Part shown: positions 28,408-34,726 of the stretch, in pieces
Position numbering within the stretch: the first letter of the stretch is position 1
How the letters are laid out: the number at the start of each line of letters is the position of its first letter
Assembly (NCBI RefSeq): GCF_032191775.1
Contig: NZ_CP132507.1
Location: forward strand, 1,389,001-1,453,000
DNA length: 64,000 nucleotides
Source of the DNA: Rhodoferax mekongensis
Lineage (GTDB): Bacteria; Pseudomonadota; Gammaproteobacteria; Burkholderiales; Burkholderiaceae_C
Reading direction: 5' to 3'
Translations under genes and position numbers: made by a program
Notes under the pieces: generated by a model
Databases searched by the model: none
What the model was told of the DNA's origin: nothing
The model's input: the letters and a program-made list of their open reading frames with translations, nothing else

Positions 28408-28575
28408 GGGGAGCTTTCAAATGGCGTGCGCTACTGCGCGGCATTCCAGTGTCCAACTCCCCGGACTGGCTGGCTGTGTGGCAGGGCACAGAGTGAGTTG
28501 CTGGGCGGAATGTCATTCGCAAGGAACTCAGGCCCGAGGAAAGACTCCATCACTGCCATCGCTCAACATTTCTTT

Positions 28576-29481
28576 ATGCACCGCAGATCCGCCCTGGCAA
28601 CGCTTGCCGCTTTCTCCGCCCTTTTTCGCAGCAGTCTGGCAGGTGCTGCCACCCAGCCTTTGTTGCAGTCGCTCAAACCTTCGCCGCGCATGCCGGTGCT
28701 GTTTGTCGGTCATGGCAGCCCGATGAATGTGATCGAAGACAACGCATGGCGCCGGGGCTGGCAGGCCATGGGCAAAGAGCTGTTGGCGCGGCAGGCGGCG
28801 CCGCAACTGATTGTTTGCATTTCGGCCCACTGGTTGACCCAGGGCTGGCAGGTCACGGCCATGGCACAGCCGCAGACGATCCATGATTTCGGCGGCTTTC
28901 CGCAGGCGCTGCAGGACGTGCAGTACCCCGCACCCGGTGCGCCGGCGGTGGCCCGCGCTCTGGCACAAGAGATCAAGGTGCCCTCGGGTGACAAACTGGC
29001 GCTGGACCCGGACCACTGGGGCTTGGACCACGGGGCATGGTCCGTACTCAAGCCCATGTTTCCCAAAGCGGACATACCGGTGCTGCAGCTCAGCATGGAT
29101 TACAGCCGCCCGCCGGTTGAGCACTTTGCCTTGGGGTGGCAGCTGCATGCCCTGCGCAGCCGCGGGGTGTTGGTGGTGGGCAGCGGCAACATCGTGCACA
29201 ACCTGGGTGCCACGCGCAACGGCAGCGGCCCGAACGAAACCTACGACTGGGCCCGCGAGTTCGATACGGTGGTCCAGGACCAGATCAAAAAGGGCCAGCT
29301 CGACCAGCTGCACAAATTCCAGTCGCTGGGTGCGGTCGCGCAGCAGTCGCACCCCTCGCATGACCACTATCTGCCCTTGCTGGTAGCCGCCGGGGCCGCG
29401 CGTCCGGACGAGATGCCCCGGTTTTTCAACACCGGGTTTCAGTCCGCATCCATCTCCATGCGTTCGGTGATCTGGGGTTAA
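28576..29481 (+). CDS. LigB-type extradiol dioxygenase (YgiD-like), exported
   Basis: A 301-aa member of the class III extradiol ring-cleavage dioxygenases, closest in style to 4,5-DOPA dioxygenase YgiD. Probable metal ligands are the histidines in VLFVGHGSPMN, CISAHWLTQGW and HPSHDHYLP; DHWGLDHGAWSVL and MDYSRPP are further family marks. The N-terminus MHRRSALATLAAF, with a twin-arginine-like start and a hydrophobic run, suggests a Tat signal, which is unusual for YgiD and would put the enzyme in the periplasm. The ATG at 28576 is preferred over a longer form starting at 28426. The substrate is unknown. Confidence 0.82.
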   Translation: MHRRSALATLAAFSALFRSSLAGAATQPLLQSLKPSPRMPVLFVGHGSPMNVIEDNAWRRGWQAMGKELLARQAAPQLIVCISAHWLTQGWQVTAMAQPQTIHDFGGFPQALQDVQYPAPGAPAVARALAQEIKVPSGDKLALDPDHWGLDHGAWSVLKPMFPKADIPVLQLSMDYSRPPVEHFALGWQLHALRSRGVLVVGSGNIVHNLGATRNGSGPNETYDWAREFDTVVQDQIKKGQLDQLHKFQSLGAVAQQSHPSHDHYLPLLVAAGAARPDEMPRFFNTGFQSASISMRSVIWG

Positions 29482-29618: not shown

Positions 29619-29638
29619 AATGAACGAGTTAGTACATT
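29619..29638. promoter_or_regulatory. Candidate TetR operator over the tetR start codon
   Basis: AATGAACGAGTTAGTACATT is an imperfect palindrome (14 of 20 positions agree with its own complement) that spans the tetR ATG. It matches the site before dctQ at 16 of 20 bases. Binding here would block the gene's own translation start region and transcription. Confidence 0.6.
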
Positions 29639-30342
29639 CCAATAAAGAGACAGACAAACCCACCCGTCGCAAAGCTGCTGCGAGTGCTGCTCCGGCAGCC
29701 AGCAAGGCCAGCGGTGCCAAGGCCCCCACCCGCACCAACGACCCGGCGCGCACCATGGCCGGGATACTGGAAGTGGCGACCAAAGAGTTTGCCGACAAGG
29801 GCTTGAGCGGCGCCCGCATCGACGCGATTGCCGAGGCTACCCACACCAGCAAGCGCATGATTTACTACTACTACGGCAGCAAAGAGGGCTTGTACCTCGC
29901 TGTGCTGGAGGAGTCGTACCGACGCATGCGGCAGATCGAGGCGGAGCTGCACCTGGAAGATTTGGAGCCCGAGGCGGCCTTGCGGCGGCTGGTGGAGTTC
30001 ACCTTCGACCGGCACGCCGACAACGAAGATTTCATCCGCCTGGTGATGAACGAAAACATCGAGCAAGGCACCTATCTGGCCCAAAGCACGTCCATCCAGC
30101 AGCTCAACGTGCCGGCCATCGAGTCCATTCGCCGGCTTTACCAAAGGGGCGTGGAGCAGGGTGTGTTCCGCGAGGGGCTGGACCCGGTGGATATTCACGC
30201 CTCCATCTCCGCGCTCACGTTCTTCAATGTGTCCAACCGCCACACTTTCGGGCTGATCTTCAAGGACAAAGCCCGCAACGCCCGCTCTGCAGACCGGCGC
30301 GCGAGCATCACCGACATGGTGGTGCGCTTCGTGCGCAAGTAA
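29620..30342 (+). CDS. TetR-family regulator of the TRAP operon
   Basis: A 240-aa repressor-like protein. A 40-residue Ala/Lys-rich, low-complexity N-terminal extension precedes the DNA-binding domain, where GLSGARIDAIAEATHTSKRMIYYYYGSK holds the helix-turn-helix. The rest is the helical ligand-binding domain with DRHADNEDFIRLVMNENIEQG, typical of the TetR_C subgroup common in Burkholderiales. It sits 116 bp before, and in the same direction as, the TRAP genes. The start codon lies within a predicted operator, so autoregulation is likely. The ligand is probably the transported aromatic-precursor acid or a product. Confidence 0.88.
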   Translation: MNELVHSNKETDKPTRRKAAASAAPAASKASGAKAPTRTNDPARTMAGILEVATKEFADKGLSGARIDAIAEATHTSKRMIYYYYGSKEGLYLAVLEESYRRMRQIEAELHLEDLEPEAALRRLVEFTFDRHADNEDFIRLVMNENIEQGTYLAQSTSIQQLNVPAIESIRRLYQRGVEQGVFREGLDPVDIHASISALTFFNVSNRHTFGLIFKDKARNARSADRRASITDMVVRFVRK

Positions 30343-30409
30343 TTCCTTTCCGGCATAACAGCTTTCCCGGTTATGCCCGACCGGTTTAGGGAAAACCCGC
30401 AAACTTAAA

Positions 30410-30429
30410 AACTAACTAGTTCGTACATT
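30410..30429. promoter_or_regulatory. Candidate TetR operator upstream of dctQ
   Basis: AACTAACTAGTTCGTACATT lies 30 bp before the dctQ GTG and agrees at 16 of 20 positions with the site over the tetR start. The AACTAGTT centre is itself palindromic. It is the natural control point for the TRAP-aroQ-aroE unit. Confidence 0.6.
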
Positions 30430-30458
30430 ATTGAAGGTACGACCCTGAGGAGCTTTCT

Positions 30459-30977
30459 GTGTTGAAAAAATTCATCGATGCCTACTGCCGTTGGATCGGC
30501 TACGTCATCGCCGCCGCGCTAGCGCTGATGGTGGTGCTGGTGTTCGGCAACGTGTTCATGCGCTATGCGTTCAACTCCGGCTTGACCGTGTCCGAAGAGC
30601 TGTCGCGCTGGCTGTTTGTGTGGGTGACTTTCCTGGGCGCAGTGATCGCATTGCGCGATAACGCCCACCTTGGCACCGACATGCTGGTGAGCAAGTTTGG
30701 CCCGACCGGCAAGCGCATCTTCATGGGCATCTCGCTCTTGTTGATGATCTATTGCCTGTGGCTCATCTTCAAAGGCACCTACGACCAATTTCTGGTGAAT
30801 AAGGACTCTGAGAGCCCGGTGATGGAAGTGTCCATGGGCTGGTTCTATGCGGGTGGCATGGTGTTCTCGGCCTTGAGCTTCCCGATCCTGGCACTGGAGC
30901 TGTTCCGCCTGGTGACCGGCCAGATCGCCGACCAAGACCTGATGCTGATCCAGGAATCTGAAGAAGCCCCTCACTAA
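30459..30977 (+). CDS. dctQ: TRAP transporter small membrane subunit DctQ
   Basis: Small inner-membrane subunit of a tripartite ATP-independent periplasmic transporter. The 172-aa protein has four membrane helices and the family signature NSGLTVSEELSRWLFVWVTFLG, in which the EE and the aromatic tract are conserved. It starts with GTG at 30459, with GAGGAG nine bases upstream; a TTG follows directly. It is the first structural gene of dctQ-dctM-dctP, an order in which the binding protein comes last. The 18-bp gap to dctM indicates one operon. Confidence 0.93.
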   Translation: MLKKFIDAYCRWIGYVIAAALALMVVLVFGNVFMRYAFNSGLTVSEELSRWLFVWVTFLGAVIALRDNAHLGTDMLVSKFGPTGKRIFMGISLLLMIYCLWLIFKGTYDQFLVNKDSESPVMEVSMGWFYAGGMVFSALSFPILALELFRLVTGQIADQDLMLIQESEEAPH

Positions 30978-30995
30978 GCCCCGGAGCCCTTTGAC

Positions 30996-32273
30996 ATGAC
31001 GATCATTATTTTTCTGGGTTCCTTGCTGGCGGCCATGGCTGTCGGCGTGCCCATCGCTTTCTCTCTGCTCTTGTGCGGTGCTGCCTTGATGTGGCACCTC
31101 AACATGTTCGATGCGCAAATCCTCGCGCAGAACCTGCTGGAAGGTGCCAATAGCTTCCCGTTGCTGGCGGTGCCCTTTTTCATGCTGGCCGGTGAAATCA
31201 TGAACGCAGGCGGTTTGTCCCGCCGCATCGTGAACTTTGCCATGGCACTGGTGGGCCACGTCAAAGGCGGCCTGGGCTATGTGACCATTGTGGCCGCGGT
31301 GATCATGGCCTCGCTCTCCGGCTCCGCAGTAGCAGATGCGGCAGCGCTCACCGCCTTGTTGCTGCCCATGATGGTGGCGGCCGGCCACGACAGAGCGCGC
31401 TCTGCTGGCTTGATTGCCTCTGCCGGCATCATCGCCCCCATCATCCCGCCGAGCATCGGATTTGTGATCTTCGGTGTGGCAGCCAATGTCTCCATTTCCA
31501 AGCTGTTCATGGCGGGCATTTTTCCCGGCCTGATGTTGGCTCTGTCTTTGGTCGGGACGTGGTGGTGGCTGGCTCGCAAAGAGCACATCACACCTCCGCC
31601 CCGAAAAAACCTGGCCGAAGTTCTGGAGGCCATGCGTCTGGCCACCTGGGCGCTGGTGCTGCCTTTCATCATCGTGTTCGGCCTGAAGTTCGGCGTCTTC
31701 ACCCCCACGGAAGCGGCGGTAGTGGCGGCGGTGTACTCGCTGTTTGTGTCCACCGTGATTTATCGTGAGTTGAACTTCAAGAAGCTGGTGCCTTTGTTCA
31801 TCACAGCCGCCAAGACCAGTGCCGTGGTGATGTTCCTGGTCGCAGCTGCCATGGTGTCTGCCTGGTTGATTACCGTGGCCAACCTGCCCGCTCAAGTGGT
31901 GGCCTTGCTGGAACCCCTGCTGGACAGTCCCAAGCTGCTGATGTTTGCGATCATGGTGCTGGTGATCGTAGTCGGTACAGCACTGGACATGACTCCGACC
32001 ATTCTGTTGCTGACCCCTGTGCTGATGCCAGTGGTCAAAGCGGCAGGCATAGACCCGGTGTACTTCGGCGTGCTGTTCATCATCAACAACGCCATCGGCC
32101 TGATCACGCCGCCGGTGGGCACGGTGCTCAATGCAGTGGCCGGTGTGGGCAAGGTCAGCATGGACGAGGTGACCAAAGGCGTGGTGCCTTTCATGATTGC
32201 CCAGTTCGCCATCATGTTTTTGATGGTGCTGTTCCCGCAGCTGGTGATGGTGCCGGCCCGCTGGTTCTATTGA
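30996..32273 (+). CDS. dctM: TRAP transporter large membrane subunit DctM
   Basis: Channel-forming subunit of the TRAP transporter, 425 aa with about twelve membrane helices. Marks of the family are GVPIAFSLLLCGAALMW at the start, MASLSGSAVADAAALTALLLP, and IIAPIIPPSIGFVIFG. It uses the sodium gradient to move the acid delivered by DctP. The protein has a normal length and no break. A strong hairpin separates it from dctP. Confidence 0.96.
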   Translation: MTIIIFLGSLLAAMAVGVPIAFSLLLCGAALMWHLNMFDAQILAQNLLEGANSFPLLAVPFFMLAGEIMNAGGLSRRIVNFAMALVGHVKGGLGYVTIVAAVIMASLSGSAVADAAALTALLLPMMVAAGHDRARSAGLIASAGIIAPIIPPSIGFVIFGVAANVSISKLFMAGIFPGLMLALSLVGTWWWLARKEHITPPPRKNLAEVLEAMRLATWALVLPFIIVFGLKFGVFTPTEAAVVAAVYSLFVSTVIYRELNFKKLVPLFITAAKTSAVVMFLVAAAMVSAWLITVANLPAQVVALLEPLLDSPKLLMFAIMVLVIVVGTALDMTPTILLLTPVLMPVVKAAGIDPVYFGVLFIINNAIGLITPPVGTVLNAVAGVGKVSMDEVTKGVVPFMIAQFAIMFLMVLFPQLVMVPARWFY

Positions 32274-32285
32274 CCCCATTCCAAG

Positions 32286-32315
32286 CCTGTGCGTGATGGG
32301 TACGCCACGCACAGG
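32286..32315 (+). promoter_or_regulatory. Intercistronic hairpin before dctP
   Basis: CCTGTGCGTG pairs perfectly with CACGCACAGG over a 10-nt loop. There is no T-run, so it is unlikely to be a plain terminator. Together with the hairpin after dctP it could protect a processed dctP transcript and raise binding-protein levels. Confidence 0.6.
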
Positions 32316-32372
32316 ATTCTTATTCACCGCGTACGCCTGTTTTTACCCAACTAACTGTCCAGGAGACAACTC

Positions 32373-33377
32373 ATGAAGCGACTGTTTATCAAATCCGTCT
32401 TGGCAACCGTGGCATTGGCCGCGTGTGGGCTGGCATCTGCCCAGGACATCAAGGAACGCACGATCAAGTTCGGCCTGAACAGCCCTGAAGGTCACCCCGC
32501 TGTGGCCGGCATGCGTAAGTTCGCATCTGCCGTGGAAGCCAAATCCGGCGGCAAGATGAAGGTGCAGTTGTTCCTGAACGGCGCGCTCGGCAGCGACCAG
32601 GCGACCCTTTCTGCTCTGAAGGGCGGCACCGTGGAAATGGCCGTGATGAACTCCGGCATTCTGGCCAGCGAAGTGAAAGCCCTCGAAGTGTTCGACTTCC
32701 CATTCATGTTTGCCAATGAAAAAGAAGCGGATGCCATCGTGGACGGCCCCATCGGCCAGAAGATGCACGCCGCTTTGGCCGACAAGGGCATCATCGGTTT
32801 GTCGTATTGGGAACTGGGCTTCCGCAACATCACGACGGGCAAAAAGCAGATCACCAAAGTGGACGACATTGCCGGCCTCAAGCTGCGCGTGATTCCCAAC
32901 GCGATCAACGTGGACTGGGTGAAAGCACTGGGCGCGAACCCCACACCCCTGCCGTTCCCTGAGGTGTACGCCGCATTGGAGCAGGGCGCGATTGACGGCC
33001 AAGAGAACCCGATTGCCGTGATTGCGGCCAACAAGTTCTGGGAAGTGCAGAAGAACGTGGCCCTGACCAACCACCAGTACAACCCCCAGTCTGTGATCTT
33101 CAGCAAGAAGGTGTGGGACACCATGTCTCCCGCTGAAAAGAAAATCATCGACGACTCCGCAGACGAAGCCGTGAAGGCGCAGCGCGAGGCCAACCGTGCT
33201 GCCTTGAACAACAACCTCGAGTTGCTCAAGAAGAACGGCATGACGATTACGACCCTGCCTGCGGCCGAAATCGCCAAGCTGCGTGAGAAGATGAAGCCCG
33301 TGATTGACAAGCACAGCGCTGCCCTGGGCACCGTGGTGGCTGATGTGCAGGCCGAGTTGGCCAAGATGCGCAAGTAA
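32373..33377 (+). CDS. dctP: TRAP transporter periplasmic substrate-binding protein DctP
   Basis: A 334-aa periplasmic solute-binding protein. A cleavable signal peptide (about 24 residues, ending GLASAQD) precedes the mature DctP domain. RVIPNAINVDWVKALGANPTPLPF contains the conserved arginine that binds the substrate carboxylate in this family, and VYAALEQGAIDGQENP is the second signature. The ligand should be an organic acid; the aroQ and aroE-like genes downstream suggest quinate, shikimate or a related cyclic acid. GGAG precedes the ATG at 32373. Confidence 0.94.
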   Translation: MKRLFIKSVLATVALAACGLASAQDIKERTIKFGLNSPEGHPAVAGMRKFASAVEAKSGGKMKVQLFLNGALGSDQATLSALKGGTVEMAVMNSGILASEVKALEVFDFPFMFANEKEADAIVDGPIGQKMHAALADKGIIGLSYWELGFRNITTGKKQITKVDDIAGLKLRVIPNAINVDWVKALGANPTPLPFPEVYAALEQGAIDGQENPIAVIAANKFWEVQKNVALTNHQYNPQSVIFSKKVWDTMSPAEKKIIDDSADEAVKAQREANRAALNNNLELLKKNGMTITTLPAAEIAKLREKMKPVIDKHSAALGTVVADVQAELAKMRK

Positions 33378-33386
33378 TCACACCGT

Positions 33387-33414
33387 GTGGAGCGGCCCGC
33401 GAGGGGCGCTCCAC
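33387..33414 (+). promoter_or_regulatory. Intercistronic hairpin between dctP and aroQ-like gene
   Basis: GTGGAGCG pairs with CGCTCCAC across 12 nt that can extend the stem (GCCC with GGGG). No T-run follows. It begins 9 bp after the dctP stop and probably protects the upstream transcript's 3' end. Confidence 0.6.
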
Positions 33415-33443
33415 GTTTGATTCCATCTTCTCTAGAGGTTTGT

Positions 33444-33890
33444 ATGAAAGTCCTGATGCTCCACGGCATTAACCACAACATGTTCGGCAAGCGCGATCCG
33501 GTGCAGTACGGCACCATCACGCTCGATGAAATCAACGCCGACCTGACGGCCTTGGGCCGCGAATTGGGTGTGGACGTGGAGACCTTTCAAACCAACCATG
33601 AAGGCGCCATGTGCGAGCGCATTCACCAGGGCTATACCGATGGTGTGGACGCGGTCCTCATCAACGCCGGTGCCTGGACGCATTACAGCTACGGCATCCG
33701 CGACGCGCTGGCCATCCTGACCTGCCCTATCGTGGAATTGCACATGTCCAATATTCATGCCCGTGAGGAATTCCGCCACAAGTCAGTGTTCGCGGAAATC
33801 GTCAAGGGCCAGATCGCAGGCTTCGGCGTGGACAGCTATCTGCTGGCCCTGCGCGCCGGGGTATCTGCGGCGAAAGCTGCGAAAAAATGA
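33444..33890 (+). CDS. Type II 3-dehydroquinate dehydratase-like enzyme
   Basis: A 148-aa protein of the AroQ family, which converts 3-dehydroquinate to 3-dehydroshikimate. Compared with the Mycobacterium enzyme as I remember it, the catalytic Asn (GIN), Arg (GKRDP), Tyr (VQYGTITL), the Asn of LINAGAWTH and its His, the His of VELHMSN, and the Arg of HAREEFRHKS all appear present. The usual opening GPNLNLLG is replaced by GINHNMFG, so it is a diverged paralogue, not the housekeeping type. The ATG at 33444 follows TAGAGG. Its stop overlaps the aroE-like start, which points to a joint catabolic role. Confidence 0.85.
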   Translation: MKVLMLHGINHNMFGKRDPVQYGTITLDEINADLTALGRELGVDVETFQTNHEGAMCERIHQGYTDGVDAVLINAGAWTHYSYGIRDALAILTCPIVELHMSNIHAREEFRHKSVFAEIVKGQIAGFGVDSYLLALRAGVSAAKAAKK

Positions 33891-34726
33891 TCATCAACGG
33901 CAATACAGAGCTCATTGTTCATCTCGGTTACCCGACCCACGCCTTCAAGGCGCCCATGATCTACAACCCCTGGTTTGAAAAAGCCGGGGTCAATGCCGTG
34001 GTGGTCCCCATGGGCTCCAAGCCCGAAGACTTCCCCGGCTTTTTGCGCAGCGTGTTCCAGCTCTCCAACATCCGGGGCGCTTTGATCACCATGCCGCACA
34101 AGGTGGTGACGACCACGTTGGTGGATGAACTGTCCCCCACGGCGCAGATTGCAGGAGCCTGTAACGCCGTGCGCCTGGGGCCCCAAGGCCAGTTGCAAGG
34201 CGACATGTTCGATGGCGCCGGCTTCGTGCGCGGGGTGCTGCGTAAAGGCTTGGTTCTTAAGGGCGCTCGTGCCTTGGTGGTGGGAAGCGGTGGCGTGGGC
34301 TGTGCGATTGCCGCATCCCTGGCAGCCGAGGGCTTGTCGGCGTTGGCGCTGTTCGATGTGAATGCAGAGGCCGCGGAGGGGTTGGCGGCACGTTTGCGCC
34401 AGCACTACCCACAGATTGACGTCAGCACCGGGTCGACCGATCCGGCAGGATTTGACCTGGTCGTGAACGCCACGCCTCTGGGCATGAACGAGGGCGACCC
34501 CATGCCCCTGGATGTGTCACGCCTGTCGGCCAGCACCTTTGTGGGTGAAGTGGTCATGAAATCCGAAACTACGGCGTTTCTCGCTGAAGCCATTCTGCGC
34601 GGATGCAAAGTGCAGGTGGGCTCGGACATGCTGTTTGAGCAGATTCCGGCGTATCTGGAGTTCTTCGGCCTGCCGAGCACCAGCGCCGATGAGCTGCGTT
34701 TGCTGGCAACGCTGCAATACCAGTAG
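33887..34726 (+). CDS. Shikimate dehydrogenase-like protein, noncanonical substrate site
   Basis: A 279-aa NAD(P)-dependent enzyme of the AroE family, overlapping the dehydroquinase gene by four bases. Kept features: the lysine in MPHK, the Asp in GDMFDGAGFVRG, the nucleotide fold VVGSGGVGCAIA, NATPLGM, and GSDMLFEQIPAYLEFFG near the end. However, the substrate-carboxylate motif that normally reads HSxSP is HAFKAP here, with both serines lost. The NTD motif is also changed (GACNAV, then MFD). So it probably acts on a different acid, for example a quinate- or dehydroshikimate-related one, perhaps in reverse of biosynthesis. The neighbours are the TRAP transporter and TetR regulator. Confidence 0.83.
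   Translation: MIINGNTELIVHLGYPTHAFKAPMIYNPWFEKAGVNAVVVPMGSKPEDFPGFLRSVFQLSNIRGALITMPHKVVTTTLVDELSPTAQIAGACNAVRLGPQGQLQGDMFDGAGFVRGVLRKGLVLKGARALVVGSGGVGCAIAASLAAEGLSALALFDVNAEAAEGLAARLRQHYPQIDVSTGSTDPAGFDLVVNATPLGMNEGDPMPLDVSRLSASTFVGEVVMKSETTAFLAEAILRGCKVQVGSDMLFEQIPAYLEFFGLPSTSADELRLLATLQYQ

Follow-up and report, generated by a model that had tools for sequence, protein, structure and literature searches.

Enzymes of the shikimate dehydrogenase (SDH) family, whose classes are named AroE, YdiB, SDH-L, Ael1 and RifI, usually have their substrates inferred from a Ser-x-Ser clamp. In plant SDH, according to excerpts of PMC4892741, two serines and one tyrosine bind the C1 carboxylate, and one of these serines is replaced by glycine in two plant groups, so that partial loss of the clamp has a precedent; the available part of PMC2789096 lists Ser14 and Ser16 as hydrogen-bonded to the carboxyl oxygen. 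In the qsuABCD genes of Corynebacterium glutamicum (excerpts of PMC7442255) and the qui genes of Pseudomonas putida, a dehydrogenase, a class II dehydroquinase and a QuiC-type dehydratase lead to protocatechuate. We propose the same chemistry for a six-gene unit of Rhodoferax mekongensis, located in a 64,000-nucleotide stretch of contig NZ_CP132507.1 (positions 1389001-1453000, hereafter the window; the one-contig genome has 3889336 bases and is 99.99% complete). The AroE-like protein of this unit, given the working name AroEL, belongs to a large family without the clamp that is often found in protocatechuate-bound clusters. With a little better than even confidence, the operon is read here as importing and degrading quinate, or a ring acid much like it, by way of a remodelled NAD-type dehydrogenase.

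The six-gene unit and the active site of AroEL

The unit consists of six + strand genes at 29620-34726 of the window, with the following profile scores in bits:

29620-30342, + strand: TetR-family regulator (PF00440, TetR_N, 48.8; PF17938, TetR_C_29, 150.2)
30459-30977, + strand: dctQ, TRAP small permease (PF04290, 100.9)
30996-32273, + strand: dctM, TRAP large permease (PF06808, 414.9; TIGR00786, 487.2, cut-off 268.45)
32373-33377, + strand: dctP, TRAP solute-binding protein (DctP, 293.4; TIGR00787, 256.9, cut-off 175.05)
33432-33890, + strand: aroQ, class II 3-dehydroquinate dehydratase with a variant pocket rim (DHquinase_II, 177.5; TIGR01088, 173.7, cut-off 169.85)
33887-34726, + strand: AroEL, AroE-like, putatively NAD-type dehydrogenase without the Ser-Ser-Tyr carboxylate clamp (PF08501, Shikimate_dh_N, 59.4, cut-off 27)

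Coordinates and profile matches for every gene confirm the six-gene unit claimed in an earlier note on this DNA. The intergenic gaps are, 5' to 3', 116, 18, 99, 54 and -4 bases, the last being a 4-base overlap of aroQ with the AroEL gene, and the DctP, DctQ and DctM components of a DctP-type TRAP transporter are all above cut-off. The unit is not a product of chance, since 98 sequences share the fingerprint of AroEL and many loci share the gene order. Among the matches listed, the named records closest to AroEL come from Comamonadaceae, including Rhodoferax and Curvibacter, with 85-96% identity.

AroEL falls within the SDH superfamily by its PF08501 match, and none of the NCBIfam shikimate dehydrogenase models listed reaches its cut-off (TIGR00507, 130.2 versus 200.2 bits; the YdiB-type NF009390, 89.9 versus 349 bits). 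It was aligned to the AroE of the same genome (PVAHSRSPIIHN; motif HSRSP; genome positions 3099152-3099994), with the site positions Ser14, Ser16, Asn59, Thr61, Lys65, Asn86, Asp102, Tyr215 and Gln244 given in what we take to be Escherichia coli numbering. At the three positions that mark an AroE shikimate dehydrogenase (Ser14, Ser16 and Tyr215), AroEL has Phe20, Ala22 and Met224, while Thr61, Lys65 (Lys72), Asn86, Asp102 (Asp109) and Gln244 all have retained equivalents. The earlier note was right that both serines are gone in the HAFKAP motif (residues 18-23) and that the NTD motif is altered, reading MFD with the Asp retained; the replacements of Asn59 by Leu66 and of Tyr215 by Met224 go beyond what it had described. 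By this alignment, it is the acid side of the site that has changed, its catalytic and polyol side being preserved, and it is supported that AroEL would be unable to grip the carboxylate of shikimate in the textbook manner.

These features were followed through 98 sources, namely the window, 17 of 30 long loci, and 80 loci among the matches listed in a pattern-based scan; the 13 other long loci (L049-L061) were mapped separately, and a 3.8 kb contig (L006) was left out. The peptide patterns of the scan favour Tyr26, Asn27, Leu66, Thr68 and His71, and these residues are also invariant in the 19 A1 sequences, picked without patterns. The Ser14 position is Phe in 97 members and Val in one, the Asn59 position Leu in all 98, and the Tyr215 position Met in 90, Leu in seven and Ile in one, while the Ser16 position is evenly divided between Ala (49) and Ser (49). 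The fingerprint read from these sequences is mostly a family trait, but the second serine is gone in just half of the members. The equivalents of Thr61, Lys65, Asn86 and Asp102 are each present in 98/98, and the Gln244 position is Gln in 83. His12 and Tyr26 are likewise found in all members; in 17 canonical rows the first of these positions holds Val or Leu and the second His or Gln. An acidic residue closing the second Rossmann strand favours NAD, and 98/98 members have an Asp there, which suggests NAD as the cofactor of AroEL.

A FastTree phylogeny built from 137 sequences groups the 98 members in a single clade (support 0.951), joined by four Burkholderiales proteins of 42-45% identity (L049-L052; support 0.997) that have Val, Ala and Met at the Ser14, Ser16 and Tyr215 positions and are all encoded between QuiC-like VOC and TIM genes. 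The best match of AroEL in the PDB is 4k28 (E 1.3e-42), a P. putida KT2440 protein of the SDH family that has no stated function; it is also the nearest structure to a model of AroEL built on 19 sequences (mean pLDDT 93.0; 34% identity, TM 0.88). Like AroEL, 4k28 has substitutions at Ser14 (Val), Asn59 (Val) and Tyr215 (Thr) and an Asp at the cofactor site; unlike AroEL, it lies on a separate branch of the tree and retains the second serine, and its relatives (L053-L060) occur in other gene contexts. These relatives, also without the serine clamp, adjoin what read as GMC-type/FAD-dependent oxidoreductase genes and not QuiC-like genes, and are therefore likely to have other functions.

The comparison with described classes covered AroE, YdiB, SDH-L and Ael1, no entry titled RifI being among the structure matches listed. 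Ael1 of P. putida (3pwz) shares the fold, but at 24% identity it ranks 46th, behind 4k28, YdiB and many AroE, and AroEL is unlikely to be an Ael1; SDH-L HI0607 (1npy), of the same fold, was rejected at ranks 47 and 49 with 22-23% identity. At least 583 stretches of the AroEL family were confirmed in one scan, and 120 plasmid records matched. Among the 15 plasmid rows listed, six bear the annotation shikimate dehydrogenase, two ThiF-family and seven none, so that present names may mislead. No description of the family or of a TRAP-aroQ-aroE operon was found in the open-licence literature, which most subscription papers lie outside.

Gene neighbourhoods of the AroEL family

Neighbourhoods were counted over the 98 sources, in 69 of which each flank is 4 kb or longer. 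Clusters of the TRAP-aroQ-aroE type, for which the earlier note had proposed a neighbourhood search, recur: dctM lies on the same strand within 6 kb of AroEL in 54/98, and the variant AroQ is nearby in 41/98. Another AroQ is found in 18/98, and within 6 kb on the same strand some AroQ is present in 57/98 (41 with the variant and 16 with another AroQ only). A QuiC-like TIM gene occurs within 9 kb in 49 sources and its VOC partner in 50; AroQ or a QuiC-like TIM is near AroEL in 80/98 loci. TetR (52/98), a Gfo/Idh oxidoreductase (19/98) and an AroE with an intact motif (14/98) are also found nearby, a recurrent order being TetR-dctQ-dctM-dctP-(Gfo)-aroQ-AroEL-VOC-TIM. At other AroEL loci the transporter is instead of a branched-chain-type ABC, MFS or amino-acid-type ABC kind. 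The Gfo/Idh-type oxidoreductase of L120, L128, L155, L156 and others is weakly like inositol 2-dehydrogenase; one locus (L092) has a fused QuiC-like gene plus a split VOC/TIM pair.

Several clusters lead further towards protocatechuate and beyond. In Bosea (L120), AroQ, Gfo and AroEL stand with a fused QuiC-like gene and a PcaH-like gene, and in Bradyrhizobium (L129) PcaH (352.8 bits, cut-off 296.4) and an apparent PcaG are followed by AroQ and AroEL. Three of the 120 matched plasmid records were mapped. In the Rhizobium leguminosarum CB782 plasmid, a QuiC-like gene (annotated otherwise; 669 bits versus a cut-off of 1200), ABC genes, AroQ, Gfo and AroEL are followed, on the other strand, by genes annotated as PcaB (above its cut-off), PcaG, PcaH, PcaC and PcaD; Marinovum plasmid pMaD4 carries another SDH, a QuiC-like gene, Gfo, AroQ, TRAP genes, a regulator and AroEL. 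PcaB-like genes also occur near AroEL in L037, L082 and L115, the L037 copy being below its cut-offs. The rhizobial clusters thus run on to protocatechuate dioxygenase and beta-ketoadipate genes, and protocatechuate is a well-supported endpoint of the predicted pathway, because the neighbouring genes of the relatives lead there.

Directly upstream of TetR in the window, a LigB-family gene at 28426-29481 is common to the closest relatives (L063-L066). As a part of the pathway it was considered and not assigned; a gene of this type neighbours the operon at L063-L066, where it scores strongly, and at L075, where the score is weak.

Dehydroquinase, with predicted downstream steps and regulation

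AroQ scores above the TIGR01088 cut-off for class II dehydroquinate dehydratases. The residues that we take to be catalytic are kept, as the earlier note had said, yet those next to them in the pocket depart from the canonical pattern, with GINHN for GPNLN and NAGAWTHYSYGI for NAGAYTHTSVAL. The nearest structure, 6cv6 (E 3.3e-74), is a 3-dehydroquinate dehydratase that shows the same variant pocket rim in the sequence match. In the whole genome, PF01220 (class II) matches only this AroQ and PF01487 (class I) has no match. The aroC region shares several neighbour homologues with that of a genome of the same genus (G370), in which a canonical aroQ stands beside aroC, but contains no aroQ; a second dehydroquinase was thus found neither as class I or II nor at the aroC locus. 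Being the only dehydroquinase found, the window AroQ should act on ordinary dehydroquinate, and, with chorismate synthase present in the genome, it should also serve aromatic synthesis. How aromatic amino-acid synthesis would fare if TetR shuts the operon is a concrete question that this raises.

Among 150 genomes of the family, 143 match the window AroQ and 32 do so over full length at 70% identity or more. In 19 of these 32 the window-type AroQ is the sole match, including two genomes less than 80% complete (G288 and G358) and one whose match holds a TAA (G359); class I dehydroquinase had no match in 21 genomes, 16 of them among these 19. In G049, the only AroQ likewise adjoins AroEL; that of G234 stands about 209 kb off. 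A third AroQ-like protein, encoded next to dctP and upstream of TetR in L065, L066 and L081, has TQHG and SNIAARE in place of the usual THTS and SNIHARE, and lacks two histidines that we presume to be active-site residues.

The step after AroQ would be encoded outside the window, by a gene pair behind branched-chain-type ABC genes (genome positions):

3086583-3087467: split QuiC, VOC part (HPPD-like)
3087473-3088375: split QuiC, TIM part

Both halves score below the NF042435 (QuiC) cut-off of 1200 (173.7 and 87.7 bits), as do the fused rhizobial and roseobacterial QuiC-like proteins (669 and 676 bits). Ten active-site residues of QuiC1 and QsuB are listed in the available part of PMC7442255, and by that list the TIM protein retains nine, Ser206 being Ala. 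LigA (PF07746) is also present in the genome, and opening of protocatechuate at the 4,5 position is therefore probable.

Nearest in structure to the window DctP are 4p47, ligand-free, and 7bbr, bound to 2-keto-3-deoxy-D-gluconate (excerpts of PMC11668362). The carboxylate binders Arg152, Arg173 and Asn213 given for 4p47 in the same excerpts are matched by Arg, Arg and Asn in aligned motifs of the window DctP, which fits a polyhydroxy monocarboxylate as cargo without naming it. Protocatechuate itself is the cargo of another TRAP system, in R. leguminosarum (excerpts of PMC3333776), and was rejected for this one because AroQ and AroEL would be left without a role. Judged from the genes, the import is most likely a ring acid of plant origin, for instance quinate.

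None of the equivalog models of NCBIfam reaches its cut-off with TetR. Two features lie between its gene and dctQ:

30352-30377: inverted repeat GGCATAAC...GTTATGCC from a palindrome scan, possibly the end of the TetR transcript
30411-30429, + strand: operator candidate ACTAACTAGTTCGTACATT, 29 bases before dctQ

A degenerate form of ACTAACTAGTTCGTACATT occurs in 29/41 TetR-dctQ intergenic stretches, compared with 0.0 on average in mononucleotide shuffles, which preserve single-base content only. At up to three mismatches, the candidate has one match in the whole genome and its backward control none; no copy places the QuiC pair in the same TetR regulon, a possibility that was rejected. A scan of the unit for sigma-70-type promoters found none (1.6 expected by chance). 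Many relatives also have blocks similar to GGCATAACAGC and TAGGGAAA ahead of the operator-like site. Of the TetR control claimed in the earlier note, the adjacent gene and the conserved operator-like site stand, and the repression itself we infer; the gene set is probably switchable via TetR.

Proposed pathway, rival readings and comparison with known systems

In the proposed pathway, DctPQM would import the ring acid, and AroEL would oxidise one of its ring hydroxyls with NAD+, in the simplest case converting quinate to 3-dehydroquinate. AroQ would dehydrate this to 3-dehydroshikimate, the split QuiC-type dehydratase would form protocatechuate, and LigAB would open its ring, with TetR repressing the operon from the site before dctQ. 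Dehydroquinate is a well-supported intermediate of this scheme, because AroQ must use it and canonical AroQ replaces the variant in some related operons. Quinate as the imported acid is the simplest inference, at about an even chance. The earlier note had suggested a cyclic acid other than plain shikimate; a unit for ring-acid import and breakdown is indeed supported and that reading plausible, and a new dehydrogenase activity, also suggested there, may be involved, but an AroQ step devoted to an unusual acid finds no support, given that the window AroQ is the only dehydroquinase found and that some related operons have a canonical AroQ.

The main difficulty for the quinate reading is YdiB of E. 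coli (1npd, 1o9b), a quinate/shikimate dehydrogenase that resembles AroEL in fold and catalytic Lys and Asp, but is only 27-28% identical to it and retains Ser, Ser and Tyr, so that loss of the clamp would be unexpected in a quinate enzyme. The quinate reading also has to accommodate Met at the Gln244 position in 15/98 members, the QuiC pair lying outside the window without an operator copy, 13/98 sources without a TRAP, AroQ, TIM or Gfo gene nearby, a Terrarubrum plasmid copy of AroEL among unrelated genes, variant AroQ away from the operon (in G234, about 209 kb from AroEL), and 15 loci with TRAP and TIM genes but no AroQ within 6 kb. The last of these, together with the kept AroE fold and catalytic residues, would suit a shikimate dehydrogenase of catabolic role whose carboxylate site has been remodelled but works equivalently, and whose dehydroshikimate would pass straight to QuiC. 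We consider this unlikely, as a shikimate-only route would not need the AroQ found so often close by on the same strand, and intact-motif AroE also lies near AroEL in 14/98 sources.

Doubtful, but deserving more weight, is a reading in which AroEL oxidises a ring acid that is neither quinate nor shikimate (an epimer, deoxy or substituted form), or a flipped quinate at another hydroxyl, and hands the product to the same later steps, the site retaining its polyol side but having its acid side rebuilt around Phe20, His12 and Tyr26. All three carboxylate contacts plus Asn59 are changed in the window protein; His12 and Tyr26 are universal in the family and absent from the canonical rows; one locus (L036) has three different AroE-like genes, as if for different acids; and Gfo/Idh oxidoreductases are recurrent companions. 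AroQ, however, must use ordinary dehydroquinate and is canonical in some operons, and the product should accordingly be normal dehydroquinate or dehydroshikimate. That AroEL is an AroE relative which has decayed or does not catalyse, as its lost substrate-binding residues might indicate, is very improbable given catalytic Lys and Asp in every member, many invariant columns, and matches that are open frames without stops.

Under the simplest reading, in which quinate is the substrate, the novelty of AroEL would lie in how quinate is bound. A bolder and rather doubtful view is that the family is a further SDH class, which holds its acid by a rebuilt site centred on His12 and Tyr26 instead of by the clamp, and which thereby acts on a quinate-like acid, or at a ring position, outside the range of the members described, in a host that has left its only dehydroquinase to a TetR-linked catabolic operon. 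The proposed unit differs from the qsu and qui systems in its TRAP importer, its TetR neighbour, a dehydrogenase without the serine clamp, and a dehydratase that is split and encoded elsewhere: QuiC1 of P. putida (5hmq), 38% identical to the TIM protein over the aligned part, is a single gene, in contrast with the two of this genome, where the HPPD-like part comes first.

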